From: Physcia stellaris
Lineage: Eukaryota; Ascomycota; Lecanoromycetes; Caliciales; Physciaceae
Reading direction: 5' to 3'
NCBI GenBank assembly: GCA_018902385.1
Contig: JABSSW010000020.1
Location: 62,001-126,000 of the forward strand
Length of the DNA: 64,000 nt
Shown here: positions 1,741 to 56,123 of the stretch, piece after piece
How the letters are laid out: each line of letters begins with the position of its first letter
Numbering within the stretch: position 1 is the first letter of the stretch
The notes under the pieces: model-generated
What the model saw: the letters and a program-made list of their open reading frames with translations, nothing else
The model's database searches: none
Told to the model about the DNA's origin: nothing
Position numbers and translations under genes: made by a program

Positions 1741-1905
1741 TTGTCTCAGTTAATCAGACCCCTGGCTAGCCTAAAAGCCAGCATTTCTCGCCAGAGAGTC
1801 TGAGTCAAAGATCGAGTAAATCGTTGTCTCAGCTATTCAGACCCCTGGCTAGTTCGGCCAAGCCTTCATTTTTCGCCAAAAATCTGAGCCAAATAACGAA
1901 TAAAT
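1741..1905. repeat. Left subterminal tandem repeat, two ~83-base units
   Basis: Copy 1 (1741-1822) and copy 2 (1823-1905) both begin with TTGTCTCAG and share TCAGACCCCTGGCTAG, a CGCCA segment and a TCTGAG segment. Copy 1 has little of the AT-driving mutation and copy 2 shows its onset towards its inner end. Repeated subterminal motifs are common transposase-binding sites in large DNA transposons; that role is inferred here. Confidence 0.7.
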
Positions 1906-2721
1906 TTTGTTTTGAATTTTTTCGACTGCAATATTATTCAAAAAAAAATTCAATTAATCAAAATTTTGTGTATTTTCTGAAAAATTGAACGAAATTTTGA
2001 AATAACGCAATATCGATTTTGACAAATAAAATTAACATTGCACAATTTTTGAAATGAAATCATTCGATTTTTTGACATGAAATAAACAATATCATATTTT
2101 CAAATTCATCGTCAAAACGTATTTTAATCAATCAAATTTTTGATGTATGCATTGTGATTTTTGTACAATTTATGCGCGAAATTGTGAAAAAATTATATCA
2201 TGATGTTGTTGATTTTCACACGCTTAATGATCAAATTTTATGATTATTTCAATATGAGAAAAACAATTTGAGTAATTTCGTTTCAAATATTCGACAATAT
2301 CATACTATTTTCATTTTTTTCAATATAGAGTTCAATCGATTGCTGTTTTTGAACATTTTTTGAATCAATTGTACAATTCATCGCATTGAATTTCAAAAAA
2401 AAACGAAAAAATATCATTGATTTAAACGTTGACGAAATAATGTAAACACATTGTTATTTCATCTCGTGTATTATACAATATCATATTATTACTATTTTTT
2501 TCAATATAAAATTCAATTAGTTGCTATTATTGAAAATGCTTTTATTCAATTGTACAATTTATTCTATTGAATTTCAAAACGAAGCAAAGAGATGACATCG
2601 ATTTAAATATTGATGAAATAGTGAAAACATGACATACAATTGAAATTTTGATAATCAATTTCACAGAAATGATCATAGTTTCATGTATGTACATTTTTCA
2701 TGTTCATGTTTATATCGATCA

Positions 2722-4712
2722 TCAATTGTGCGTTCGAAAAATTCGATTTTTTCTTTGTTGACGTTGACATTGACGAGAAATTTTGTGATTCAAAATTTCA
2801 AAAATTTCTTTTATTTGAATTTTTTCATTGTATTTGTTCACGTTGACATCAAAATTCGCAACGTCGTTTTTGAACAAATTTGCGACGACGTAAATCGAAA
2901 ATTCACGTTTTTTCATATAACGCATGTCGCGTTTTAACAGATTTGCAATCATTGTTTGCAAATTTTCGATTATCGATTTGATTGAATGATTGTTTCGATA
3001 ATGACGATGCAAAAAATCATGAATTTTCAAACGAAATTGCAAATTATATGATATGATTAACGCAAAATTTTTAAGCAAATCGTCGAAATTTTTGATAAAA
3101 TTTCGTCGAGTTGTCAAATTCTTTTTGAAAATTTCATTGAGATATTTCAATAGTCGATTCGTTTCAAAACATTTGTCATTTGAATTTTGCAAATTGACAA
3201 AATTGTTGATCAATATTGCTTTTTGTAATATCACGTTCGATGTTTTTGAACAATACAAATGTATAAATCGAATTAGTTTCGTCGCGTAATTGAAAATATT
3301 TTTTTTCGAAATTTGAAAAAAAAACGCAAATATTTCGTAAAACATGTTTTAACAATTCAATATCATCGTATTTAATGAAGTGTCGCAATTGAAAATATAT
3401 TTTCATATGTTTAATAAAACGAAAATGATTTTCGAACATTTCGTTTTCGATCACGAAAACAAATTGAATTTGAAAATTGAAAAAATGAACAATGACAATC
3501 AATTCATTCACGAGATTTTCATAGTTCGAAAATTTTAATCGTTTGAATCATTTTTCGAACTTGAAAACAAACAATATGAAAGCGAATTTTCATTGTCGAT
3601 TGAAAACAAATCGTATGAAAACAAATTTTTTTCGTCGATTGTTGCACAAATGCATCGTTACAACGAAAATTTTCGTTTGATAAAAATGAATCAAAAACGC
3701 TTTCAATTTAATAAAGTTTTGATCGATGTTTACGTTATTGCGTTTTCAAACATCAACAACAAATTGCAATGTGAATTCATTTGTCGATTTAAAATCATTT
3801 CAATGATTTTTATGAATCAATTTCAGAAAATTCAAACGCAAATGTCAAAAATTCAAATTCGAAATTATTCATTTTCGAAAATTATATAATTTTTCGACGT
3901 CACGTCGACAGTTTTGCATTGTCAATATTCGCAATATGATTTTCAAATCATCATAATAGAGCAGAAAAATATCGTTTCATATTGAATCGTTGAAATTCTT
4001 TTTCAATTGTCGTTCTTCAATGTTTTCGTGAATCAATATATTGTTTTTCGTCGTGTTTTCGTTTTGTTGCACGAGAATTAAAAAATGCGATTTGATTTTA
4101 CTATATGCAATTCGTTTGATTTTTGACATTTTCATCAATTTTTTACGTTCGTCGAATCTTTTTTTCGAAAAGTTTTTGAAAAATGTTGTTTTCAAACTTT
4201 CATGAACGAAATGTCGACGATTTTGAACAATAATAAATAAACAATGACGAAAATCAAATATTGCGAAACAAATTTATTTGATGAAATAATTTTTTCGTGT
4301 TTGAATTGATCACAACAATGTTTTGCATTCGTATTTTGTGATTCGATCGTCACATGTTTTGTCGTAAATTTTCATCTGAAATCATAATGATTTGAAATTG
4401 AAAAACGATAATGATATCGCGTTGAATTTTTCGACTTTTTATTTTTTCGACGAATTTGTGATTTACAAAATCGAAATTGTCATAAAATTTCGTTTGTTTT
4501 TCATTAAAAATGTTACGACAAATCTCATTTTTTCTCAATACAATCAAATGTTTGATCAAGCTTTGCGTCGTGCTATAACAAACACAAATGTTGAAAATAA
4601 ACAATATGTCAATTATTCTTTTTTTGATTTTTGAATTTATCAAATATAACGTCAACGTTTTGATCAAATTATTACATCGAGAGTTTTGCATAAAGAACAA
4701 CAACATCGACAT
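2722..4712 (-). pseudogene. Decayed DUF6589-family-like gene
   Basis: Three minus-strand frames (4712-4350, 3511-3176, 3345-2722) read in order like parts of one protein. The first has SKIKKRIIDILF..CVCYSTTQ followed by FYDNFDFVN. The second has a 'K(Y)DDIELLKHVLRNIC' helix pair. The third has NNFVNLQNSNDKCFETNRLL then EYLNEIFKK-like helices. This order matches what I recall of the fungal DUF6589 family, whose C-terminal half carries an 'LVN..G..(K/H)W.E.D.L.EH.N' motif. Here the Gly and Trp of that motif are gone, as expected from G-to-A change after a purine. The product is surely non-functional. DUF6589 proteins are multi-copy in fungal genomes and probably mobile-element borne. Family assignment is from memory of motifs, without alignment. 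Confidence 0.45.
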
Positions 4713-7700
4713 TCACATGATTTGTTTGATGTTCATGAATATGAATTGTGAAAACGAATGATTCGATAATTTAGCAACGAAATTCAAAAATTTCATCAAA
4801 AAAAATGCTGTATTGCGTACGACATCAACAAAAAATTTCAATTTATCGATGAAATTCAGAGTCTGAATATTGAAATCGAGAAATTTTCAACGAAAACGTT
4901 CATTGTTCGTCAGTTCGATCAATTTTTTTCGAATTTGTCGTTGATATTTTGCTTTTTCGTCGATTTTCAACATGTTGTTTCAATTTTGCACTTCAAATCG
5001 AAATAAAGAATTGTTTTTTTTTTCGTTCAACATCTTTTGATATGCGAATTTTCGAAATTGTAATCAATATTTGCGATATCGTTTTTTTGAATGATGTTTC
5101 GTCAAAACACGCAACAAATGTTGCATGTTTAAATTTTTTTTTTCATCATGTTCACGACGAATTGCAATTTGAATTTCTGTGTAATGAGTGATTTACGATT
5201 CGATTTTCGAGAACGTTTGCGTTTGAATTGAAAAAAAGTTCGAAAATCAATCGATGTTTGAATATTTGAGTTCATGTTAAAGATTTGAGTTTGCGCAATA
5301 AAGAGTTGTAATGATGAAAACGAAATGTTTTAAAAATCGTAAACGTGATGAAAACAAAACGAAAAATTGCGATGTGAAAAAAATTCGATTTCGTTTTAAC
5401 GTGAAATCTGATATCAAATCAAATTCATAAATTTGATTTTCAGAACGCGAATTTGTTCGCATACAACAAATTGTTATTTGATCGATTGACAATTTTCTAA
5501 TGATGTTGATTTTAATCTAGATTAATTGTACAATGACGATTATGTTATCAATAAAATCATTTGACGTTGTTTCGTATGAAAATGACGATTTGAAATATTT
5601 GATATTGTTTGATTTGAGAAAAAGAATGTTCATATAAACACATGTCAAAATTTACATCATTCAATATTCTTTTTGATTTTCAAAACACGAATCAAAATAA
5701 ATTAATAATTCAATTCACGACGTCATTTGCGCTTTTTAACGTTAAAACAAGAATTATACAAATGCAATGAATCAAACATATTTATAGCGAGTTTTTATAT
5801 CACGTATGTTAAATGATATGAGTAAACTCGTATGACTTTTTACGAAAAACGAAAATTGTTGAAATCAAAATGTTGTTGCTTTCTCGAAACGTGAATCGAA
5901 ATAAATTAATTACTAAATTCACGATGTCATTTGAGCTGTTTGATATTAATGAAAAAATTGTACAAATGCAATGTATTAAACATATTTACAATAAATTTTT
6001 ATATCATGTATGTTAAATTATACGAGCAAACGTTTAACGATTTGCATAAAATTTTGACTGTATTTTTTGCGTGCGCATAAATTTTCATTTCAATATCATT
6101 TTTGAAATTTTCATTCATCGATTTTTGTTCGTTTGATCGATGTTTGAACGCTTTCAATGTTTGTTTTCTCGTTCGATTTGTCAATGATTCGTATTTTTGA
6201 TGAAAAATGAATAAAAACGACGTGCTCGTATTGACGAATGAAAAAAAATAAAATCGTGACAAAATAAAAACGTTGTGATCGAAAAAATTGAAAAAAAAAA
6301 AAAAAAAAACTGAAAAAAACGATGAATAAAAAAAAAAAAAAACGAAAAAAATGTATCGACAAACTTTTTGAATTTTGTTAAAAAAAAGAAAAAAAGAAAA
6401 GAAAAAAAATATGAAAAAGAAAAAAACGCGTAAAATTTTTTGAATGACGTATCGTGTTTATATATGCAAATAAAAAATCAATATTTTAATGAAACGAATT
6501 TGACTGAATGATTTAACGATTAAAATTGTAAATAAACATTTTTCATTTATGATCGTTTCATTCATGATTGCGAATTCGAATCGCGTGTGCAATGATAAAT
6601 ATTTTCAAAATTTATTTTTGTGATAATTTCGAGAGTTTTGATTCAATGAAACAATATTCATTTTTGAGCACATGACAAAATTTCGAGATAATTGAATTGA
6701 TAATTTGAAATCTCGACTAACATGTGAAATATCACAGAAAACATCACTTTTTTGATTGTTGTGACAATGTTGAAAATCAGAATTTCGACGCGCAAAATTC
6801 GAAATCGAAAGAAAAAATACTCGAAAATACTTGATTGAATAATTGTGAATGCGAAAAAATAAAAAATGAAAACGAAAAAAAAAAATAATGATAAAATAAA
6901 TCTGATATGATTCGAAATCGAGATCGAAATCGAAAATTATAACAAAATAAAAATGATTTGAATGAAAAATGAAAAAAATCGAAACGAAAAATCATGAAAA
7001 AATAAAAACGATGTGATCGTATGAGCGAAAAATTTGAAAAAAAAAAAGTTGAAAAAAAAAATTGAAAAAAAAAAATTGAAAAAGAAGAAATTGAAAAAGA
7101 AAAAATTGAAAAAAAAAAATTGAAAGAAAAGAAATTGAAAAAAAAAAAAATTTCGCAAAAAAAAAGATTTTGTACAATTGTTAATCGATTTTTCGATGAT
7201 TGAAAATTGATATCATTCATTTCGTCGTGTTGAAAGAAAAAACTCGTTTCATCGTGACGAAAAATTTTGATCACTTCTCGACGTATGTGAGATTTACGAC
7301 GTGATGAAAATTTCAAAAACGCGTTGAATCGTGTCAAAAACACGTTTTTGAAATTTAAAATTTCGTATTACAATTCATCGTCGTGCTGATAAAAAAGACA
7401 TCGTGTAAAAAAAAATGAAAATGATGAAAAAAAGTTAAAAAATAAAAAGAAAACGAAGAATTGAGCGACGAAACGAAATCAATTTCGTTATATTTTCAAT
7501 TTCAACATTACAATTTCACGATCGTGAAACATTTTTGCGCATAATGAGAACAACTATATGAATCATTAAATCATTCATTCATTTAGACGACTAATCGAAT
7601 GAAACTTTGAAACAAGATTTTCGATTTGTGTACGATTAAAAATCGTAAATGATCGATCAATTCGACGTCGTTTCATATATTTTATTTTCAACAATAATCG

Positions 7701-10700
7701 AGCAACAAAAATATGTCTTTGTTATTACATTTAGAATCTTGTATATTTGCGAAAAAGAATCATTTGATTTTATATTTCGTATCATGATTAACGTTATCAA
7801 CAAAACGTCGATTTAATGCATGCATTTTTGTTTTTGTACAATTTAAGTTTTTCAATATTTAAGCAATAGATTTGTTCGTATATTTTTTGCATTTTTTCGA
7901 AATTTTTGCATTTTTGACGTATAAACAAAAACAAGCAATTTACAATTTCGTGTACAACGACAATTTACGAAAACGAATTTTCAACATCGAAACATACATA
8001 TGAGCGATAAATAGAATAAAAATGAAAAGAAAATTTGAAAATGTATTGTTTCGATTTTACTTTTTTCAAATTTCGCATTTCATTTTCATCGTTTAATTGT
8101 TGAAAAAATTTGATATGAATTACAAAACGATGTTTTACAATCGCGAAAAGAGCATGACTGTTTCAAAAAAATTCAAAAAAATTCATAATCAAACAACATT
8201 GCAAAGAAATTTTTTTGCAATCTCGTATATAACGAAAAATGCAATGAAATCGACACACAACATGATTATTTTCGAAACAAAAATTCAATTGTGCTCAATT
8301 TCATTTCAAATTACAATTTCATTTCATTATTTTTCGTTTTCGTCGTTTGATTCGACATTTTTCATTTGAATGTTCGAAAACGATGTTTTCGTCAACGTTT
8401 CATACATTTTTTTTTGTTTGATTTTTTCGATCAACACAATTTTCAACATTCTTTTTTCGTTTTCATTCAAAAACGTCTGATATTTTCTTTTATAAATCAA
8501 AAAAGTGAATTTTTTTCAAATTTTTTTAAAAAACATATTTACAATTTTTTTTGCGACGCGAGAGCGACGCGATCTTGAAATTCAAATTGTAAATGTTTTT
8601 GTAAAACGAAAACTCGAAATTTTTGTTTTTTCAATTGATGCGAAAACAACGATTTGAAACTCGATAAAATCGAATCGTTCGATTTCGAAATTTTCAAACT
8701 CGAAATCGTCGAAATTGTCGTCGTGCTCAAAATGAGTTTCTGTGTTTATATTCATAAATTCGTTTTCATTTTGAGACAAAAATAATGATTCATTTTTGTC
8801 GACATTGAAATCGATTTTCTGCAATCGTTCGCGATTTGTCGTAGATTGATTGATGAGCAATTTTTGACGATTTGATTGTCGTTGCGAAAAACACGTTTCG
8901 AAACTCGACAATGTTGTTTTTACAACATTGATACGAGCTCGCGTGTCTTTGTCATGCACAAAAGAATTTTTAATTTTGAAAAAAATCGAAAACATCACTT
9001 TTGCGATCGCAAACGATATTTGAATGTCAATTAAATTTAAAATCGAATCAAATCAAATACAAATTTGAAATTGAAAAATTGCATATTCAACGAACATTGA
9101 TTTTTTTTATGTATGTACGTGCAGTTGTCGCACGTCTCAAACTGATTTCTGATTTGACGACATAGACGAAAAATCAATTGAATTTGATTTTGTTCAATTT
9201 GAACGCAACGAATGCACGTTTGAATTGCATTTCGATCAATCGTTTAAAAATTTGTTAAACGATCGATTTTTTATCAAAAAAAAAACATGTTTATTTGAAT
9301 GATCAAAACGTCGAATTGTTGCGATTGATGAATGTTGTCGAAATCGATGCGATTGATGAAATGCAAAAAAACGATGTGTTTGTCGAAAACATTCGTAAAT
9401 TACGATCGCTTCATTGATGTTATGCGAATTTTGAATTGAAATATCATCATCGTCAATCAAATTATCATGATGATTTCAAAATTCAATTCACGACGTCGAA
9501 ATCAACGTCGATGACATCGTCATCGAACACGTTTGAATACACATTAAAAATTGCATATAATTTCGAATATCAATGATACATTTACAAATGATTAGAGAGC
9601 TCGCGTTGCGCGACATGATTGTGATGTTGAAACGAAAAAAAGAAAAAAAAATCGAAATTCAAATAAATAAAGATGATTTTGCAAACGACGTTAATGATGA
9701 ATATATGTTGATGAATGATTTTCACATCAAAATAATAGAATCATCGAAATCACAAAAATAAACAATATCGTTATACATTCGTAGTTTCGAGAGATAATAA
9801 TAAACACTATCTGATGAAATAAACAAATTTATATTTTTGTACAATTAATCTGTATTGACAAATAGTTTTATTTATATCGAATTTTCTATCATTTGACTCG
9901 AATATGCTACGCGAAAACGAATATTTTCGACGACGACGATGCTCGAAATGTCAATGTTTAAAATCACGCAAAGTTAAAAATCAATTCTTCGAATTTCGTC
10001 AAAAAAACAACGATATTGACACGATCAAATCGTCTCGAATAAAGATAACAAACACTATTTGAACTAATGAACGATTGTGTGCGTTTGTACAATTCATTTG
10101 TATCGACAAATAATCGTATGTTTGAAAAATTGATAACAATCGATTCATTTTCGTCGTGCGAGATCGAGTATTTTCAACGAAAACGATATTCAAAAAGACA
10201 ATGACTAATATTTGATAAAAACTCAAAATGTTTAATTTTCAGACATCAATACGATGTCAAACAATATCGTCGAAATCACATCGTCTCGTATAAAGACAAC
10301 AAACATTATTCGATCGAGTAAGCGATTTTGTGCTTTTGTACAATTCATTTTTGTTGACAAATAGTTTTATTTCAAAAACATTGTTTATTTTTTGATTATT
10401 TTCGTTGAACGATAACGAACGATTTCACGAATATTAGAAATTGAATAGTTGCGAAAAATGATAAATTCACGATTTCGAACGAGAACATGATCACAATACA
10501 AAAACAACATGATTTTTAAATTCGATGAAAATTGTTTTTAATTTATTTCGAATTTGCTCGTGAACGAGATTCTCTATTTACATTATCGTTTATAACAAAT
10601 AAAAGAAATCAAATCGATGCAAATTGCGAGAATTGCGATTGAAACATCGATTGTTGATTTTCATTTTCTTCTATCGTGAAAAATGAAAACGAAAAAAAAT

Positions 10701-11913
10701 CTGTTGATTGCGAAATTTTTTGCGATTGTGATTTTGACTTTATCGTCAACGAAACGTTAAACGTTGAAACGATTTTTTTTTTGCGTTTTTTGATATTTTT
10801 TTTTTCGATCGACACATTTTTGCTAATCAATCAAGTTTCTCGTTGCTCATTATGTTCTCGAATAGATTTTTCAATTTCAATTTTTTTTTCACTCGACATT
10901 TTTGTCTTTTTGCGAATTTTCGCGTCAAAATCAACTCGTCATGCTATTCAAATTTCGTTGTTTGATTTTTTTTGATTTCGAAAATCGATACACATACTCA
11001 CAATCTCATTTTGATACAACTTTTTATTGAATCAATTTTTGCAATATCGCAACAAAGCATCTCGATTTGTCAAAAATTCGACGAATTGAATGATAATTTT
11101 CAAAAATCGATCAAAAAGTATGATCGATTCGAGCATGAAAATATGAAAATTCGCATATATTTCTCGAGTTTTTTCATCTTTTCATAAAATCAATTTTTTG
11201 ATAAGATACGCATGAAAAACAATGTCGAATTTTTTGAACTCGAAATAAAATCGATGTTTCGAAATATGATTCGAAATGCAAAATGAACAACACATCGCGA
11301 ATTTGATTAATTTTTTCTTTTTCTATTCGACGTAAATTTCGTCGTCGTATCGTTTTAATTCGCACAATCTATTGCAAAAAGAATTGATTAAATCGATGTA
11401 TGTCGATATTTGTTTTTGACGTTGTTGCGCATTGCGAACAGATTTCGTCGCTTTGTTCATTGATTTGATTCGAAAATCAGCAACGTTGTTTTGATCGAAT
11501 TTATATTCGTTATCGTTTTGCTCGAGTATGTAAACTTTCAGCAATGAATTTCGATTTTCTTTATCTTTTTTGACTTTCGATAGATCGATTTTGTCACAAA
11601 CTCATCGAGAAATCAACAAATAACAAAATTCAAAAAAGATTTGACGAACGTTTCGATTTTTTTTTTGAGTCAAAACGTGTTTGCTTTTAGAAATCATTCA
11701 ATTACAAATAATTTTGATATTTGAATTATTCGCGCTCAATTCATATGTTTCGTTAACGATCAAAAATCGAATTGATGAACTAAATTCAGAGAAATTCGTT
11801 TGATTCGATTTCTCGAACGTATCAACAATTTTCTTTTTGTCGTCATCAATCATGTTCGCATGATACGTTGCTATTCAACGTTTGACGACGAGAAAATAAT
11901 TTCATTCGAAAAA
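4713..11913. other. Element interior without recognisable gene
   Basis: Seven kilobases of CpY-depleted AT-rich sequence. Several frames of 60-190 codons stay open because the base composition is poor in stop codons. Most translate to Phe/Ile/Lys/Asn low complexity. The minus frame at 8998-8582 is the most protein-like, with an Arg/Gln-rich start and an Asp/Glu/Phe-rich end, but I cannot name it. I call no gene here. Confidence 0.5.
7030..7152. repeat. A-rich minisatellite of TTGAAAAA(n) units
   Basis: About nine units of TTGAAAAAAAAA to TTGAAAGAAAAG (roughly 11-13 bases each) lie in tandem. A related pure A-rich tract is at 6289-6350. Slippage-prone sequence inside the mutated element; no function inferred. 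Confidence 0.6.
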
Positions 11914-12825
11914 TCAAACGTCGATTGCAAATTGAACGAAATTTTGAATTTTCGATTTGTTGTCGAAATAGAAAATCGTTTTGAGAATGCTATAAAAATC
12001 AATCGCATGAATCGAAAAGAAACGACGAAAATTTTCGAAATTTTTTTGATTGTTTTCGATAAATATAATATGCATATTGATTTTCGATTTATCGATAGAA
12101 ATTTTGATTATTCGACAATTCTCGAAGTCAACGTTTCTTTTTACGACGATCAACGTATTTTTATTCAGAGTGACGAAAATGTCAAAATATAACACATTCG
12201 AAAAAAATCGATTTTTGAGCACATGAAACTCGTTGAACTTTGAACAAAAATTTCGTCAATCGTCAATCAAATGCAATTCATTTACGATCACAACTATCAA
12301 ACGTTTTCGAAACTTCGATTTTTTGCAAATGTTTTCGTTGAATTCGATCGAAAATATGTATTCGAAATTGATGAATATTGTTCATTGTCAACAAAAGTTT
12401 TGACAATCGATTGAAAACTTCGTATCATGAATATACATTTCGACAACGATTCTTTCACGATTCGATTTAAATTTATGATTTTTATCATAAACGAAAAATC
12501 GAGTTCGAGAAAATTTATTGATTTTTTCGTATTGTTGTTTCGCAATGAATTTCAAAGACACAATCATCAACACGATGTTCGTATCTCGAGAATGTAACAA
12601 AAATAACATATTGAAAATCAAATTTTTGTCGAAATTGATTTTCGTTATCAAAATCAAAAACTTTTTGAAACACGCAACGACATGTATAATTTTTATTTGT
12701 TTTTTTTTTTTGAAATCGAATATCTCAAAGATACGAATAACAATTTGATTTAAAATCATGTTTTCGAGCTTCGTATTATTTGAAATCGAAAAAATCTCTG
12801 TTGAGAAATTGTGCTCGTTCGTCAA
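11914..12825 (-). pseudogene. Decayed RecQ-type (SF2) helicase gene
   Basis: The frame 12825-12388 reads like the start of a RecQ/DEAD helicase core. It has a Q-motif-like segment (FDFKKKKQIKIIHVVACFKK), then a Walker A region now NFDKNLIFNML where GFGKSLIFQML would be expected. Motif Ia (VSLKFIAKQQYEKINK) follows, then FVYDKNHK. A second frame (12222-11914) carries the early HELICc part: SIDKSKINMHIIFIENNQKNF, then ILKTIFYFDNK, which fits 'PKTIVFVD'. The lost residues are Gly and Pro, the codons hit by this element's mutation pattern. The DEAH region between 12388 and 12222 is not clear. Whether this was a telomere-linked-type helicase or part of the transposon's own machinery cannot be told. 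Non-functional as it stands. Confidence 0.6.
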
Positions 12826-13194
12826 AAATTTCGATCATTTTGACTCATTATCATAAACATTCTCGTCTGACTTTTGTACATGAAAAATCGAAATTCACAA
12901 ATCGCGATCGTGCGTATCATTTAAAAATGTTGTTTTCACGTTGAATGTTGTCAATGAATTTCATTGATTGAATGTAAAAGTTCGAGAATTATGAAATGAA
13001 TTGATCGTTTCAACAGACATGTCGATGTCTATTGTGATATCGTAAAATCGTTTAAAAAATTGAAACGCGAAAATCATGATATATAGCAAAGAAATCGATA
13101 ATAGTATGCGTAAAATGAAATTTTTTGATCAATTGCGCATTCGAGAATTGCTTTGAAATGATAATTTTGAAATTGAATAAAATTTGCTTTCGTT

Positions 13195-13665
13195 TTGTTT
13201 GCGATACGTCAATCTCAATCATCACGTTGTTTTAAAAAATTATCTTTGTGAAATCTTGTAGCTCGATATCGAAATAATGATTTTTTCGTCTTTAATTAAT
13301 TGTATTCGATGTGAGTTGTGCAAGAAAAAGTTTCGAAAAATGTTGAATTTGATGATTTATGATTTTGAAAATGAGACGAAATATGTTTGTCGCGTTGTCT
13401 CTTCGTATTTCGCAATTGAATTGAACAGCAATCACAACGTATTATGAAATTATCTTTGTGAAATTTTGTAACTCGATATCGAAATAGCGATTTTCTCGTC
13501 TTCAATTAATTGTATTCGATGTGAGATGTGCAAAAAAAAACTTCGAAAAATGTTGAATTTGAGTGATGACGCGAAGATAAATACGATTATTTATTCGATT
13601 TTTGATTCAGACGTGTAGATAAAAAGCTCGAATTTTGTGACGCTTCGACTACACGACTCGAAACA
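13195..13665. repeat. Right subterminal repeat cluster, inner copy pair
   Basis: Two units of about 200-230 bases in tandem (about 13235-13437 and 13438-13665) share AATTATCTTTGTGAAAT, then CTCGATATCGAAATA. The second unit ends in a segment matching 13560-13665 to 14635-14744 of the outer cluster. This inner pair is more mutated than the outer pair, and nearly all differences are C-to-T at CpY or G-to-A at RpG. Confidence 0.65.
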
Positions 13666-13853
13666 AATAAATCGTTGTTTTGAATCTTCGCGATTGCAAT
13701 ATTACACAAAAACAGCACGATAAACTGATAACTAGCGTTTTTATCGAGTATTATTGATTTAGCTCAAAACATTCAGAACGCAATCAGAGTTATTTCAGAA
13801 TTGAACAGCATAATCAAAGTTATTTCAAAATTGAAATTTTCGAAGTCACGCAA

Positions 13854-13877
13854 TTGAACGTTCAATTGAACGTTCAA
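13854..13877. repeat. Perfect 24-base palindrome
   Basis: Two tandem copies of the self-complementary 12-mer TTGAACGTTCAA give a 24-base perfect palindrome, followed by a looser inverted repeat (GCGCAATGCAATTGCGC) at about 13880. It lies between the two right-hand repeat clusters. It could be a cruciform or protein-binding site of the element; no direct evidence. Confidence 0.55.
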
Positions 13878-14304
13878 TGCGCAATGCAATTGCGCAACAA
13901 ACATTACATATTATACATTTACAAGTTTGCTCGTGAATTTTTTCAAAAACATTCTCAATAAGAATTCATCGAAGTAGATCGTAGACGTTAAAAACAACAC
14001 AATATCACAACGAAGAGATCAATTTACGTGATTTTTACATCTTCAGAAAGCGCATGAAGAGTTTTACAATTTTGAACAATTATATGAAATTTATACGTTG
14101 TTGATGATTGCGATGCATGTCGTGCAACAACTGTACGAACTCGAGAACTTTGATGATTGATAGAATGAAATATAGTCGTTTTTCTCTTTGAGAACGTGAA
14201 TTATGTATTGATTGAATTTATCGACTTTAAGCAATACGAACGCAGAATTGATCAAAATTCTTCTCGATCGATCATTCGCGTTAAGCGATTTTACAGAATA
14301 TTTT

Positions 14305-14745
14305 ATTATAGGAAGATTCTATCTCGTTAGAACATTGTAATTCGATATCGAGTTAACAATTTTGTCGCTTTACATTGTTAAATTTCGTAATATTCGTTGC
14401 AATAATGAATTGCGCAATGTGTTTGATTTGACAATTTTTGAATTTGAAAATGTAAAGAAATGTGCGTTCACAACACGTTCGCATTGTTGCGCAATTCAAT
14501 TACACAACAATCACAATGTATTATGCAATTATCTCGCTAGAGCGTTGTAGCTCGATATCGAATTAACAATTTTGTCGCTTTACATTATTAAAATTCACAA
14601 TATTCGTGTGAATAATGAGCTTCGCAAAATGCTTGATTTGAGTGATGTCACGAAGCCAAATACGAATAAAAAGCCGATCTTTGGTCCAGACGTGTAGAAG
14701 AGAAGCCCGAGCTCTACGACGCTTCGGCTACACGGCCCGAGACAA
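14305..14745. repeat. Right subterminal repeat cluster, outer copy pair reaching the element end
   Basis: Two units (about 14310-14516 and 14517-14745) match the inner cluster. The last unit ends CGGCCCGAGACAA, the right terminus. The outer ~130 bases (from about 14615) keep CC, CT, AG and GG and look unmutated, while its counterpart at 13560-13665 is altered. Confidence 0.65.
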
Positions 14746-14753
14746 CCAGATGG
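14746..14753. repeat. Right copy of 8-base target-site duplication CCAGATGG
   Basis: Exact match to 1733-1740, directly next to the terminal GAGACAA. Confidence 0.75.
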
Positions 14754-15363
14754 TTGGGAGCGGAAATGACGGCAGATTGCATGAATTGGGATGATGCTTA
14801 AAACACCTGCATCATGCTTGCACGCAAAAGCTCGGAGTCGATTATCCCACGCGTCCTTCTTCGTCTTCTTCCATTGCAACCTCCAATGACTCTTATGATT
14901 GCTGGATTCCGCTCAAAGCACACCGTCTGTGAATAATAATAATAGTGTCTCGGTGCCACAGTCCAGACTTCAACACTAACCGAGATGGTCCCGGCACATC
15001 AATTGAAAATAATCGAACGGGATGCTCTCACGCAACGAATCAGGCAATTCCATCTGCCACACCTACCCTGTCGCTGTCAGTTCTGAGCCTAGCACCGCCA
15101 CCGGGCTTGCTGCTTGCCATGGACCAGGCTGAGAAGGTCTTAGCGATCCACCGAACAGGAGCCCTCTGTCGCCCTACCGTCTCTCGTCACCTCAGCCAAT
15201 CTCTCTGCAATCTGCAAGAATTTTCCCCGAACCTCTGCCTTTGCATGACGTTGTCTGTCTTCACCTTTTCTTTTCTGCTCCTTCCTTCATCCCACTTGCC
15301 ATCTTCGTCCTTTGTTACTTGACCTCTCGAATATATTTTGTTTCATACTACCACTTCGCCAAA
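14754..15363. other. Upstream region of the aquaporin gene
   Basis: About 600 bases of normal composition. A pyrimidine-rich stretch (about 15225-15355) leads up to the start codon, as often seen in fungal promoters. Open frames here are short and unconvincing. Confidence 0.5.
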
Positions 15364-35893: not shown

Positions 35894-36994
35894 GATATAG
35901 AGACTGCGTTTGACGGATTTGTAGGGTATGTACAATTGGGAATTTATCACTCGATTATTCTCTCTCGAATTTTGAAGCTGACGCATTCTGTGGCGTAGTT
36001 GGTAACAGTGGATATCATGCCTCAAACGCTGCCTAGTTGGACACCCAAATTCTCCAATTAATGATAGCTTAAAACCCCGAGAACATAGCTGGAAAATATT
36101 GGGAATATCTAGTTCTAAGTATGCGAAGCAAAATGTACGCATTGGAAGCATACCAGTCCGAACCTCTCACACTCCCACCACCCGCCAACTCTTTCTCAAT
36201 CAAACCACCCGTCCCAATCCCCATCTCCATCCAAGCAAACCCCAAACCCCAGATCCCCACCTCCGGCAAGCAAGCACACCCCACACTCTCGCCCTCCTCC
36301 ACGACGACTGACCCGATCAGTGAAGTCGGCATCCCCATCCTTAAATACATGCACCCAACTCCAATCTCCTTTCCTCCGACACGCTTCTCAGCAACAGGAA
36401 TTTACATCCCACCTCCAATGGCTGACTCCCCTCCCCTCCCCTCGCCTCCCCTCGCCTCAGCCACCGACCTTGCACCCCATGGCGCTGGATCCCGTATTGG
36501 AGACCGCAATTACCCTTTGAGCGATTTGGCTTGACTCTATGCGCTGCTCGGGCTTACTTAGGCTTTAGATTAGAAATATTGTAATTGAGAAAAAGCAGAT
36601 CTGAAGCAGGCACCAGGGGAGGGGGGAGGGACCGGTGCTGCGGCCTTTTTGAGTTTTAGAGGTGGGGAATATGGAGGAGATGGGGAGGGGTTGTGAGGAG
36701 GACAGATGTTGAGTTTAGAATGGGCTTGGGGAGCCGTGATGGGTTGGAGACGAGTGAGGAGCTCGGCGAGGTGGGGATGCTGGAGGGGAAGGTGAAGGAT
36801 GATGAGAGGGATGAGGAGGGGGAGGGTAAGTAGGGAGAAGGAGAAGGAGAGCCTGTACGATGGTCTGTGAAACCGCGTAGGGACTACTCTGTCACTCTTA
36901 GCTCTTGTCTGAATGGAAAAAAAAAGTTCTTCATATTCATATACGTCATCCTGTGATTCACCCTCCCTCCCCCTATCACCATCCTCATTCTCTA
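35894..36994. other. Intergenic, Pro-rich frame and G-rich tract
   Basis: The plus frame 36121-36534 (137 residues) is rich in Pro, Ser and Thr and has no known domain. Its minus-strand counterpart (36350-36069) is Gly-rich. Neither is safe to call. From 36610 to 36860 the plus strand is strongly purine-rich, with runs such as GGGGAGGGGGGAGGG that could form a G-quadruplex. This lies in the 3' flank of the permease gene. Confidence 0.4.
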
Positions 36995-39033
36995 CTACAA
37001 CGCCCCCTCAAGCGGCGAGTGACACGTGAAAGAATTCGCCGCCCCTTCGTCAAACGCCGAAATCAGATTCTCGATCGCGGAGTAAGCACCCAACCCCGCC
37101 AACGCCAGAGCACCAAGCATGTAAAGCACATTAAAAGCATTCATGTACCACCTATCCGCCATGAACCCCCTCATCACTCGCTTGAACCCGCTATCGGAGC
37201 GATTGACTCGGCCAGTGCTGGGATCGAAGCCCTCGCCTCCGCGGATGGCGTTCTTTCTGATCATGTATCCGATGGCGAGGAGAGGTGGGAAGGTGTAGGT
37301 GAACTGAAGGATACAGACGGCCGCGACGAGGGATGTTAGGCCAGTGAAATCCGGGATGGCGGCTGCGATGATGAAAGCAATGGACCAGTAGACCGGGATT
37401 ATGGCGACCCAGATGTATTTACCCGTTTTGGTGGTTAGGGGAGGGGCGCGGAAGATCTCGACGAACACGTTGTTGTACAGTACTGTAAGGAGATTAGGGA
37501 TTCTCCTTCGACAAGGGATATATAGCAATCAAGCGCACCTTTGACTCCGATATTGCCATATAGCGAAGCTGCGATCAGCGCGCTGATCATTGCGAACACG
37601 TTACCTGCGGTTTGCAGGCTGTACTTGGAGATGCCGAGGTAGCTGGGGTTCACGACGTACTGTCCTTGATAGCCGTACATGAAAAGGCCGTAGAACATAT
37701 AGATGAGGTAGATGAAGAGTTGCGCACACCACATGCCCTGCACCCATGAGTTAGCATCAATTGATCCACCGTACAAGGATGGCGTTCACCTTTAAGAAAT
37801 CTCGGGGACGCTTCATCTCAGACATGAATTCGGGAAAGACCATAGATCCTCCGTAAGAAAAGACGGCTTGCATGGCTCCGTTGAGGCTACCGATGAAGCT
37901 TGAAGTGTCAGGAAGGCCAGCAGTATGGGTTACCGCAGGATAGACGCCAGCAGCGCTCGGGGTGATAGAGGTGCCATTGTTGAATCCCGCTCCAGCAGCA
38001 AGATCCGCAGCCAAATAGTTTGGTGCTGTGGTCGCGGCAGCACCCATGGTGATCCCGATAACGATGAGATTTATCCAGACAGCTGCATTTGCAAGCCATC
38101 CGAACTTCTGCAGCGTTCGGACCTGTCCGAAAAGGAAACCAGCCAATGCCCAGACCAAGCAGCAAATCACATAGCAAAGCTTGAACTTCGATGCCTGCGA
38201 CAGAGCCTCGCCGTTCGATATCACGATAGCACCAACATTCAGCAGAAGCTGGATCCCCTGCAGAATATTGAACAAGTATCTCAGCGGCCATCCATAAAGC
38301 CGGAAGCCGATATCTCCAAAGCTCTTGACTGGGAACTCGTACGAATCCAGTCCCATGAAACACATCCACAAAAGATAGCCAGAGTATCCGGCGAGCACGG
38401 CAAAGACGGTAAATAAAGCGACACCCGGGCTATAGAACGAGATTAGTCGAAGTTCCATTGCAATATAGCTGATCAAGCGGGGTGATTTACCCCCATCCCA
38501 TAGAAGCAAAGGCGTAGGGCAGACCGAATGGGCCCAGAATGTCCGTCGTAATCAGGTAGAAGATGGCTCCCCAGGTAGCCGTTCGAAAAGCTCTATTTGC
38601 ATTCGTCCATTCTAAGGACTGTCAGCTAATATCTTCTTGGGCTTCTGTCGGGTCTCCACATGCCTTCGTCCGTGATCTCCATACGCTTTTTTGGATCAGA
38701 GAGGTTCATGGTCGACGCAATAACGGACCCACGTTTTTCACCATTCACTGTGGACTGCGCAACACCCTTCTCAGACTTGGAGGGGAAGATGACGGAAAGG
38801 ATGCTGGTCGAGCCTTTATTTGCCGCCTCGTAGTCGGCCGCTTGGTCTTCATCAGCGCGAGTCTTCTCGGCGTAGTAGTTGTATTCCTCGAAAGTGACCG
38901 AGGCGTCATGCAGCTTGCGCATTTGAGGAAGGGTATAGGGTATGGATGAGAGGCCATTGGCGCCTTTGCCTTCGTCCACGTGCAGTCGTGGATCACCCCC
39001 ATCCATGGCGAGGTTAGCCATGGTATTAGCCAT
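36995..39033 (-). CDS. Mtr-like amino acid permease (AAAP family)
   Basis: Exons 39033-38664, 38611-38491, 38429-37790, 37737-37539 and 37482-36995 give 605 residues in frame. It is a membrane amino acid/auxin-permease-family transporter, nearest to the Neurospora Mtr neutral amino acid permease. The hydrophilic N-terminus (about 125 residues) includes FEEYNYYAEKTRADE. EWTNANRAFRTATWGAIFYL then opens helix 1, and ITTDILGPFGLPYAFASMGWG is the conserved first-helix motif. About ten further helices follow, with GGSMVFPEFMSEMKRPRDF and YIWVAIIPVYWSIAFIIAAAIP. The first intron appears to use a GC donor (GAAG|GCATGT, 38663). The GT two bases further in would break the frame, and the total of 1818 bases supports the GC site. 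Localisation at the plasma or vacuolar membrane is inferred. Confidence 0.9.
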
Positions 39034-52403: not shown

Positions 52404-52408
52404 GTTAC
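52404..52408. repeat. Possible 5-base target-site duplication, left (GTTAC)
   Basis: GTTAC directly before the LTR at 52409 is matched by GTTAC at 56119-56123 directly after the other LTR. Because both copies sit in CAGTTAC, the exact phase is uncertain by a base. Confidence 0.6.
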
Positions 52409-52629
52409 AGAAAAGAGGATAATTAGCACAGTGGCAGAAAGTCAGAATCGAGACTCAATAGAATCATATATCGAGTGCAGTGCTTCTGATTGTAAAATGT
52501 GTGAATTATGACTATTTAAAAAAATGTTACAAACGATTTTGTAAAAGATCGAATGTCAAACATATAAAACTAGTCACGTGCAATTCGTTTATTGATCAAT
52601 TATCAATTTCTTGTTATTTTTTTGTAACA
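52409..52629. repeat. LTR copy next to Mis12
   Basis: 221 bases aligning without gaps to 55898-56118. The outer part (towards Mis12) is little altered and the inner part is strongly AT-shifted. Confidence 0.8.
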
Positions 52630-55600
52630 GTTTTTTTTCATAGCAAAACGTTGCTCTCAACGTCATTTTTTTAATCATTTTCAATCAGACAACATAGATT
52701 TTCTAACGCATCGCAATATTGACATCGAAAATCAAATCGAATGAATCACGTTGTACGTCGAAAAAAAGAAAATTCGTAAAACAAATATCGAAAAATGTCG
52801 AGAATTCATAAAAATAAAGCTTTATTTTCGTCGCAATTGCATGATATCAATTGATTGTTTTGCAAATTCGAAATGTCGAAATCGTATGTTGATTCGAAAA
52901 TTTCGAATTTGCACGTTTCGAAATTTTGCGCATTGTCGAAAAACGAAATCATTTTGTATGCGAAAACAACAAATATTTCAAATATATTGACGATTGTTGA
53001 CGTGTTCGAAAAAATGATCAATTTGCATGCACATTTTGCAATTATTTTAACGTTGTAATCGTTGTTGAATGTCAGAGAACAGAACGATTTTATATGCAAA
53101 TTTGACAAATATTTCAAATGTATTGAATTTTATTGATGTGTTCGAGAATTTGATCATTTTGCATGCGTATTTTGCAATTATTTCAAAAATTTTAATCGTT
53201 GTCAAATGTCGAAAAACAAAGCGATTTTGTATGCGAATTTGATGAATATTTCAACAACGATTCTATTTTTTGATTCGATATGTTTCGATTTTTATAATTG
53301 TTTTATTTTCATTTTTGATAATTTTTTATGTTTCGATTTCGACGTCAAATTTTCAACAAAATTCGAAAATGATATTCAAACAAAGTTTTTCGTAATTTTG
53401 ATCAAATCAACGATCAAAATGAACGCATCGATATTCATAACAAAATCAACAACGATAAAAATATCGTCAACAAAAAAGCACAAAAATTGTTTTCTTTCAT
53501 AAAAATCGATATTCTCGATTTCAATAAAAGTGACATTCGAAATGATAAAAACGACATTCGAAATGATAACAATGACAGTCGAAACAAAAATACAAACAAA
53601 AATCGAAAATATGCGAAAATCAATAAAATTAATGCAACAACGATTTCAATCAAATGAATTGTGACGCAATGCGAAATCACGAAACGATTTAAACGATGCA
53701 ACAAAAATTGTATAATTATTTCGATATTCATAATATAGATTTCGAAATCGATATCAATGTTGAAATCAAATGCAAAAAATGCAAAAAATTCGTAAATGTA
53801 AATCGAATTTTTTTCAATGTTTTTGAATTTTCGATATGTTGTATCGACGAATTTTTCGAAAATGCATTCATTGCAATATCAAAATCAAAAGTCTCAATAA
53901 CAAAATCATTCATGTTCATGAAATGTTTGAGAAATGACATATTCATTGCGATCGAAATTTTCAAATTCTCGAAAAATAATGCGAACGAGTTTTTCGAAAA
54001 TGCGTCATACGTGACAATCAAAACAAAAATTTTTTGATTCAAAATTTTCATATCAATAATGTAACAACGATTTCAGTCAAATGAGATATTCGAAATTGAT
54101 TCGATATCGAATGCGAACGAATTTTTCGAAATTTCGTTAAATGTAATAATATGATCAAAAATTTTCTTTTTTGCAACGACGACAATTCATTTGTCAAATT
54201 CAAAAACAAAAATCTCATCGATTGATTCGATGTTGACATTCACGATTACATTGATTTTCAATAAATCGCATGACATTTTTTTCAAAATGAGCGAAAACTC
54301 GTTGACAACAAAACAGATTTCGAATGATGATTTTTGCAAATTTGTAAATGTGATTATTCATTTGATCGATTTTGAAATAATAAATTTTGCGAAAATCTCG
54401 ATATTCGTGATATTCACAGTTGTATTGATTTTCGATATTTCAAATCGTATTTGTTTCAAAATATGCAAAAACTCGTAAAATTTCTGATTTCGAGCAACAT
54501 CACGATCAACGATATTTTGAAATTGTTGTTGTTGCAAAATCAATTGATATTTTTTTTGACGTTTTCGTTTTTTTTTTGTCGAAATTTTCGTTTTGCAATG
54601 ATACAAACATCGTGCAAATTAAACATGAGTTTGTTGAACAAATATATAACAAAATTTTTGTTGTTGAATTTTCGAATTCAACATTCGATAACAATAAACA
54701 ATCAATTTGTTTCGTCGTCAATTAACATAATATTTTTCGTATTATTCTTGTAATCAAACTCAACAAAAAAAAAATTCTTGATGCGTTGATAATATTTTTT
54801 AATAATTTCATTTTTTTGTTGCATGATGCGAAAATTGTGCAATAATTCGTATTTGAATATAACAAATTTTTCGACAATAAATTTCTTGACAACATATTGT
54901 TCGCAAAATACAACAAACTTTTTGATAACAAATTTCTTGACAATCGAATATTTTTCGCAAATCAATTGAACGAATTTTTTTTTGTCGATTTCGTCAAATG
55001 TTTTTTTGTCAAACATGATCATTATTTCTTTTTTGTTGTTGATTCATTCGAATGTCTGATCGATAAATTGAGTTCATACAATTTCAATTCAATTTTGAGA
55101 AAATAGATTCGATCGTATTTTATGTTGCAAATTGTCGAGAAATTGACGATCGTTTTCAGCGATTTCATCGAAAAAACGAAACATGTTGTTGATATCGATT
55201 AATGTAAAAACGATTTCAATCAAATGAATGAACAAACTATTTTATCGAAGTCGAATTTTGAAACAATTATTTACGTCGAGATTTGAAACAAAATGTCGAA
55301 ATCATTGCGACGAAATGAATTACAAATCGATTGACATTTTGACAAAAATACACGTTCTGTTCGTTAATTATGTATCATGAACGATGTATTCACGATCGAG
55401 TATCGAGTAATGACGTTTTGAAACGATAAAAATGATTGCACGAATATCGATATCGTTAATAAATGTGCGTTTTGATTGAATCGTTTCAAAAATTTATTTT
55501 GTTCAATAATAACAATTTTTCGTAATCGCTTTTTCTCAATATTCGTATTGAAAATTCAAACAATCGATATAGAAATATGTCTGAAGTTTTGCTTGCAAAC

Positions 55601-55897
55601 GTGCAAAAAATGTTATTTCGAAAAAATATTGCGAAATTAACAAATCGAATATGTTCGAAATCGAAAGCAAAAAGTACAACGTGATAACTAAAATTATTCG
55701 TCAATTATAAATCGCATGAAGTTGAAATTTCGTCGTTTAATAATAATAATATAAAGAATTTCGTCGTTCGAAAAAATAAATCATTCGTAATTTAATTGTT
55801 GCGTAGTAAATGATTCGATTTTGCTGTTTTCAAAAAATGCACAGTGAACGATCAACGACGATTTTTATTGTCAATCGTTTTTTCGAGAATGAGCATC

Positions 55898-56118
55898 AAA
55901 AAAGAAAATAATTAACACAATGACAGAAAGTCAGAATCGAGATTCAATAAAATCATATATCGAGTGCAGTGCTTTTGATTGTAAAATGTGTGAATTATGA
56001 CTATCTAGAAAAATGTTACAGGCGATTTTGTAAAAGGCCGAATGCCAAGCATATAAGGCTAGTCACGTGCAACTCGCTTATTGACCAATTACCAGTTTCT
56101 TGTTACTCCCCTGCAACA
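55898..56118. repeat. LTR copy, right side
   Basis: 221 bases, partner of 52409-52629. Here too the inner part is altered and the outer ~115 bases keep normal dinucleotides. Confidence 0.8.
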
Positions 56119-56123
56119 GTTAC
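56119..56123. repeat. Possible 5-base target-site duplication, right (GTTAC)
   Basis: Matches 52404-52408 across the LTR element. Confidence 0.6.

Follow-up and report, generated by a model that had tools for sequence, protein, structure and literature searches.

Two transposons of Physcia stellaris carry C-to-T hypermutation led by CpC, probably the work of a mutator of the RIP kind

What kind of mutator strips a transposon of nearly every CC and GG and leaves its CA, TG and CG in place? The question is raised by two AT-rich tracts, lying in two elements of a single 64,000-nt window of Physcia stellaris contig JABSSW010000020.1, the window being the whole stretch of DNA that was analysed. 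The first tract (block 1) belongs to element 1, a DNA-transposon-like element of 13,005 bp (1741-14745), and the second (block 2) to element 2, of the long terminal repeat (LTR) type (52409-56118). In both, C has changed to T before a 3′ pyrimidine (CpY), to saturation at CpC and partially at CpT, and the change is confined to the interiors of the transposons. We hold it fairly probable that a repeat-directed C-to-T mutator of the kind known from repeat-induced point mutation (RIP) hit both transposons with a preference for CpC over CpT, and that it was probably a methyltransferase of RID/DIM-2 type with an altered 3′ specificity. The host reference throughout is the window's own DNA at 15.5-52 kb, which takes the place of the ancestors of both tracts.

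The void is close to complete. No CC or GG starts between 1890 and 14310 in block 1, a single GG stands at 14311, and none follows until 14656; block 2 has none from 52434 to 56020. In 200 mononucleotide shuffles, 1890-14310 yielded 462 CC+GG on average and never fewer than 413; in block 2 the shuffling covered 52491-56000 and yielded 127 on average, with a minimum of 100. The bias was also sought outside the elements, and no CC/GG-free stretch longer than 150 bp was found in the window besides both tracts. Before A, C, G and T, respectively, C/(C+T) is.548,.000,.466 and.086 in block 1 and.543,.000,.459 and.065 in block 2, against.604,.456,.438 and.507 in the host reference. Likewise, (CC+GG)/(TC+GA) is 0.000 in block 1 versus 0.837 in the host, and (CT+AG)/(TT+AA) is 0.098 versus 1.028. 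CT and AG are strongly depleted, yet present, and the residual sites lie on both strands (197 CT and 224 AG in block 1, 34 and 55 in block 2). CA, TG and CG are retained, C before A or G being little changed, and the 5′ neighbour of C has little effect, the CC void itself aside. The original prediction, which had described CC, CT, AG and GG as nearly absent from 1890-14615 and CA, CG and TG as common, gave a count for 2041-2160 that is exact (15 C, 12 of them CpA and 3 CpG; 12 G, 9 of them TpG and 3 CpG), and it was right about the common dinucleotides. For CC and GG it understated the case, since only the GG at 14311 is left; for CT and AG it overstated it, since these are reduced and not absent. 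The start at 1890 holds, and the first tract reaches to about 14655, with a CT depletion that is weaker at the right.

This weakening is instructive. CT loss is strongest at the left of element 1, where the eight 400-bp windows of 2151-5350 hold 7-14 CT/AG each, and weaker rightward, where the three of 13351-14550 hold 25-27; CC+GG is zero in all of them bar the last, which has one. As the CC void persists throughout while CT loss fades, the preference for CpC over CpT holds at differing overall intensity. The lone GG at 14311 sits in this zone of weaker CT conversion, 345 bp short of the right tract edge. A finer lean exists within CpT: measured against a uniform CpT rate, C survives over 1901-14300 at about double the predicted frequency in CTC and at about half of it in CTG, and block 2 leans the same way (CTC.120 versus.061 predicted, CTG.063 versus.087 predicted).

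The direction of change can be read from repeat copies, and best from element 2. Its 221-bp terminal direct repeats, flanked on both sides by the 5-bp target-site duplication GTTAC (identical flanks at 52404-52408 and 56119-56123), are the hallmark of an LTR retrotransposon. The left LTR (52409-52629, plus strand) is unmutated at bases 1-78 and mutated from base 108, and the right LTR (55898-56118, plus strand) is mutated at bases 1-78 and unmutated from base 108, which allows each mutated half to be set against its unmutated partner. The two LTRs differ at 30 of 221 bp, and all 30 differences are C-to-T or G-to-A, with no transversion and no indel. Every C or G at positions 1-78 and 108-221 was counted; positions 79-107 were left out, the one CpY site there (104) being kept in both copies. 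By context, change struck 12/12 CC, 17/29 CT, 1/26 CA and 0/12 CG, sites altered in both LTRs being invisible to this comparison. The contrast between CpY (29/41) and C before a purine, CpR (1/38), is sharp (Fisher P=5.6e-11), and CC also differs from CT (P=0.008).

A second directional pair comes from an internal repeat pair of element 1 (13256-13677 and 14335-14756, plus strand), whose second copy spans the tract edge. Over 100 columns, 13578-13677 (mutated) was compared with 14657-14756 (unmutated), and C-to-T change was found at 7/11 CC, 8/14 CT, 2/9 CA and 1/18 CG sites. With both pairs pooled, 44 of 66 CpY sites are changed versus 4 of 65 CpR sites (P=1e-13). Of the nine internal repeat pairs, eight were set aside in estimating rates: both of their copies are mutated and they have diverged, by 4 to 48 transversions each, and therefore give no direction. 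C/T differences at CpA and CpG also occur in these eight pairs, where they are taken as older divergence between the repeats. The four changes which had been pointed out between 14674-14689 and 13595-13610 were reproduced, and the LTR pair does share their spectrum, as had been claimed. The core of the original prediction, a CpY rather than a CpA rule, is thereby upheld by composition and repeat copies alike, with the correction that CpC far exceeds CpT and the target is not uniformly CpY.

Can so simple a rule account for whole tracts? Random C-to-T loss was simulated on the host reference, with one rate for each 3′ base and the misfit measured as Kullback-Leibler divergence (KL). For block 1 the fit gave CpC saturated, CpT at 1.39 and CpA and CpG at zero, with a KL of 0.0013; CpC saturation and CpT at 1.39 simulate a G+C content of 0.280, where 0.273 is observed. 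Block 2 was fitted by CpC 13, CpT 1.68, CpA 0.07 and CpG 0.01, again with a KL of 0.0013, which rises to 0.0021 with the CpC and CpT rates alone. The block 1 alternatives did far worse: KL was 0.324 for CpA only, 0.099 for CpA with CpT, 0.336 for CpG only and 0.347 for no mutation. A single rule, CpC saturated and CpT partial, thus nearly suffices to account for the tracts, and rules built on CpA fit them far worse.

Where the process stops is equally telling, and it refines the CpY claim: it halts within the transposon ends. All four tract edges lie inside elements, 78-149 bp from their ends, at about 149 bp (left) and about 90 bp (right) in element 1 and at 78-107 and 114-143 bp in element 2. 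The tract of element 1 covers 1890-14655, and that of element 2, from the LTR comparison, at least 52516-55975, its edges falling in 52487-52516 and 55975-56004. Before a pyrimidine, C/(C+T) is 0.38-0.47 in the four element ends, compared with 0.064 and 0.050 inside the tracts and 0.481 in the host; the left end of element 1 (1741-1889) stands at 0.467 and its right end (14656-14745), part of the reference for 13578-13677, at 0.460. In the 100-bp outer flanks the value is 0.463 for element 1 and 0.337 (32/95) for element 2. LTRs are identical at integration. Given that they were alike then and are now mutated in complementary halves, the mutation is most likely post-integration, and the LTR comparison indicates that element 2 was mutated ahead of any other LTR difference. 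Its mutation is acute, preceding ordinary divergence, as no other change separates the LTRs. Editing of retrotransposon complementary DNA was considered as a source and is rejected in view of the identical spectrum in the DNA-transposon-like element and by the complementary LTR halves.

Is this, then, RIP? The changes are transitions only and fall on both strands, and in element 2 they are acute; CpA preference and positive RIP indices are lacking. A tract scores as RIP-positive with TpA/ApT>1.15, a substrate index of at most 0.75 and a composite index>0 (PMC7882544). Both tracts fail all three tests, with 0.41, 1.45 and -1.04 in block 1 and 0.41, 1.54 and -1.13 in block 2, and the host reference, at a composite of -0.56, is less RIP-negative than either. 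This is therefore not classical CpA RIP. The tracts resemble the classical process, RID-dependent in Neurospora crassa and present in most Pezizomycotina, in that C-to-T change strikes the two strands of transposons, leaves AT-rich islands and destroys their coding capacity; CpA leads there, whereas here CpC exceeds CpT and CpA and CpG are near zero.

The target order is quoted as CpA>CpT>CpG>CpC in N. crassa, and in T. reesei CpA is about level with CpG, followed by CpT>CpC, one sign of that order being lost in the text (PMC5496416). In a Zymoseptoria duplication 240 of 242 changes fall at CpA (PMC10294615), Anisogramma shows CpA and CpT (PMC10998396), Monilinia has CpC-to-TpT double changes alongside classical CpA (PMC8959702), and CpA methylation exceeds that of CpC and CpT in the MAGGY element of Pyricularia (PMC7979813). 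Ten fungal genomes displayed CpA, CpT or CpG signatures, with CpA/CpT tied to RID-class genes and CpC absent from the main text of the article (PMC4352252). In the Tad1 repeats of N. crassa CpT changes outweigh those at CpA, and in S. nodorum repeats CpC is among the depleted dinucleotides, yet TpA alone rises (PMC2621366). Genomes with a CpT signature (Botrytis, Sclerotinia, Magnaporthe), like Tad1, resemble our tracts in having CpT to TpT as a major class, and such genomes hold a RID-class gene (PMC4352252, PMC2621366); according to the table of PMC4352252, however, CpA accompanies CpT in each of them, whereas our tracts have CpC in the lead and next to no change at CpA. RIP-like mutation described as CpG-directed, in Microbotryum and Rhizoctonia solani AG8, shares a 3′-base context other than CpA (PMC4352252, PMC4014442), but CpG is spared here (0/12 in the LTRs). 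Table 2 of the Rhizoctonia article gives one change per 214 bp at CpC, 370 at CpG, 422 at CpA and 491 at CpT, although its text stresses CpG (PMC4014442). These changes differ from ours in that they are single-nucleotide polymorphisms between nuclei, occur in repeats as well as in genes and stay far from saturation, but the table argues against strict novelty of CpC changes (PMC4014442). RIP has been treated as directed at CpA, with CpT or CpG as secondary signatures, and section 9 of a 2025 kingdom-wide survey names a preference for CpA as common to RIP-like defences (PMC12543289). No CpC-led RIP was described among the titles and abstract openings listed in a search outside which most subscription journals lay.

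How might such tracts arise? Since both strands and both element classes are hit, with one spectrum in each, and the ends are spared, the pattern is that expected of a homology-guided process such as RIP. A 3′-base context is typical of the C5-methyltransferase class, whereas for the common single-strand deaminases it is the 5′ neighbour that counts; that the context is here read from the 3′ base points to target recognition of the methyltransferase type. We propose a genome-defence mutator of the RIP kind, which would convert C to T on both strands before a 3′ pyrimidine, saturating CpC, converting CpT in part (the LTRs show 59%, and the rates fitted to the tracts give about 75-80%) and touching CpA and CpG little or not at all. 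Its targets would be marked by homology to other copies, and its catalyst would probably be a RID-class (or DIM-2-class) C5-methyltransferase that prefers targets with a pyrimidine on their 3′ side.

Several points weigh against this proposal. Each element occurs in a single copy in the window, and repeat dependence is thus inferred; the CpC>CpT ranking is unlike the N. crassa order, which leaves the enzyme assigned by analogy. The second directional pair has diverged: its 100 columns include 8 transversions and one reverse transition, and four of its 11 CC sites show no C-to-T change, with C retained at three and a different base at the fourth. What is left in block 2 is skewed to AG (55) over CT (34). 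CpA is perhaps not fully spared, as C/(C+T) before A in block 1 is below that of the host, and the fitted model is short of TA (.0452 vs.0529 observed) with an excess of CA (.0690 vs.0639 observed), a misfit that may reflect slight CpA change escaping the fit. Lastly, the complementary LTR halves could have come about through recombination with an unmutated LTR, against which stands the sparing of ends in both elements by one rule.

Other mutators must accordingly be weighed against a RIP-type methyltransferase. That the lineage has a defence mutator with inverted targeting (CpC first, CpT second, CpA and CpG spared), whose enzyme is other than canonical RID, is possible and held tentatively. 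Unlikely, in our view, is the idea that a mutator outside RID/DIM-2, for instance a specialised cytosine deaminase or a methyltransferase from a different family, has been recruited to transposons in this lineage. The last rank of CpC in both N. crassa and T. reesei (PMC5496416) would favour it, as would the silence on CpC in the main text of an article that links signatures to Dnmt classes (PMC4352252). Against this, the choice of the 3′ base on both strands suits recognition of the methyltransferase type and not the habits of the APOBEC type. Deaminases of that type recognise the base 5′ of their target, and the tracts they leave are biased to one strand.

The DIM-2 heterochromatin pathway acts on DNA adjoining repeats, and it is distinctly improbable that packaged elements were mutated here through it by a CpT-preferring methyltransferase: the tracts end inside the elements without any exit into the flanks, and CpC exceeds CpT (12/12 vs 17/29). 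In its favour, DIM-2 methylates all CpN contexts with CpT preferred, a non-CG, CpT-leaning context akin to ours (PMC13297926); that is methylation in every context, however, and what is seen here is mutation, CpC first and with no spread. Still less credit is due to a sequencing or assembly artefact, in which heavily modified CpY cytosines are misread as T. Miscalls bound to a modification would likewise end at element ends, but the artefact would require conversion on both strands of all CC/GG but one GG over 16 kb, together with graded CT conversion, little effect at CpA and CpG and no LTR indel; even then, transposons would have to carry a base modification specific to CpY. Slow decay, by CpC/CpT methylation of transposons and spontaneous deamination, would also confine C-to-T to methylated contexts, but it is hardly credible and is contradicted for element 2, where 30 transitions in 221 bp without other substitution or indel, that is, saturation in an otherwise identical LTR pair, call for an acute process.

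If the rule does place CpC above CpT and all but spare CpA, it offers a natural specificity variant for asking what sets the target base of RID/DIM-2. It would also mean that lineages with this rule are scored RIP-negative by TpA/ApT and composite indices despite saturated transposons. The rule has a peculiar effect on coding, too, as nonsense arises almost solely from Trp (TGG to TGA) and Pro and Gly codons are abolished; with nonsense almost only at Trp, TGA is what interrupts long frames that otherwise remain open. In the five frames counted there is no Pro, Gly or TGG, and each holds 3 to 14 TGA, which by this rule would be former Trp codons.

Element 1 shows this well. Its limits rest on imperfect terminal inverted repeats (TTGTCTCRG) and on an 8-bp target-site duplication, CCAGATGG, present as identical flanks at 1733-1740 and 14746-14753. 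A test of 85,260 end pairs gave five with identical 8-bp flanks, a single 11-bp match accounting for four of these, and 1741/14745 was the sole pair with inverted ends (8/9) beside such flanks. Random region pairs supplied 94 flank identities, none of them with inverted ends of this kind. Eight of its 46 frames were scanned against Pfam with TGA read as Trp: no transposase domain was recognised in these eight, and one of them matched DUF6589 (PF20231), a coding remnant at 3074-4273 on the minus strand (E=7.7e-18; 64.8 bits, cut-off 27) with 10 in-frame TGA and no TGG, Pro or Gly. A search of viral contigs with this remnant gave 27 pattern matches, none confirmed. The longest TAA/TAG-free frame of block 1 (11326-13239, minus strand) runs for 638 codons and is open apart from 14 TGA, whereas no such frame exceeded 340 codons in 100 dinucleotide shuffles; read with TGA as Trp, the 638-codon frame had no Pfam match and no solved-structure match at E up to 1. 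Frames of low complexity lie at 6000-7400, Phe-rich on the minus strand and Lys-rich on the plus strand. At the left end a tandem repeat with an 83-bp period and 78% identity occupies 1737-1905, mostly unmutated and reaching slightly beyond the left tract edge, and at the right end a subterminal repeat array with spacings of 210 and 1079 occupies 13221-14756.

In element 2, two of 16 frames were scanned, without a Pfam match above cut-off, and a degenerate 40-base pattern found no relatives of its LTR in viral contigs. Neighbours in the window include genes for DUF2293, a GMC oxidoreductase and a sugar transporter, a set that suggests a filamentous ascomycete; genome contigs gave 36 pattern matches to the DUF2293 neighbour, none confirmed, and Rfam and tRNA scans of the window returned no hit. 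Within 36001-37000 CpG is low (0.50) and CC/GG is raised (1.34/1.37) relative to the adjoining DNA.

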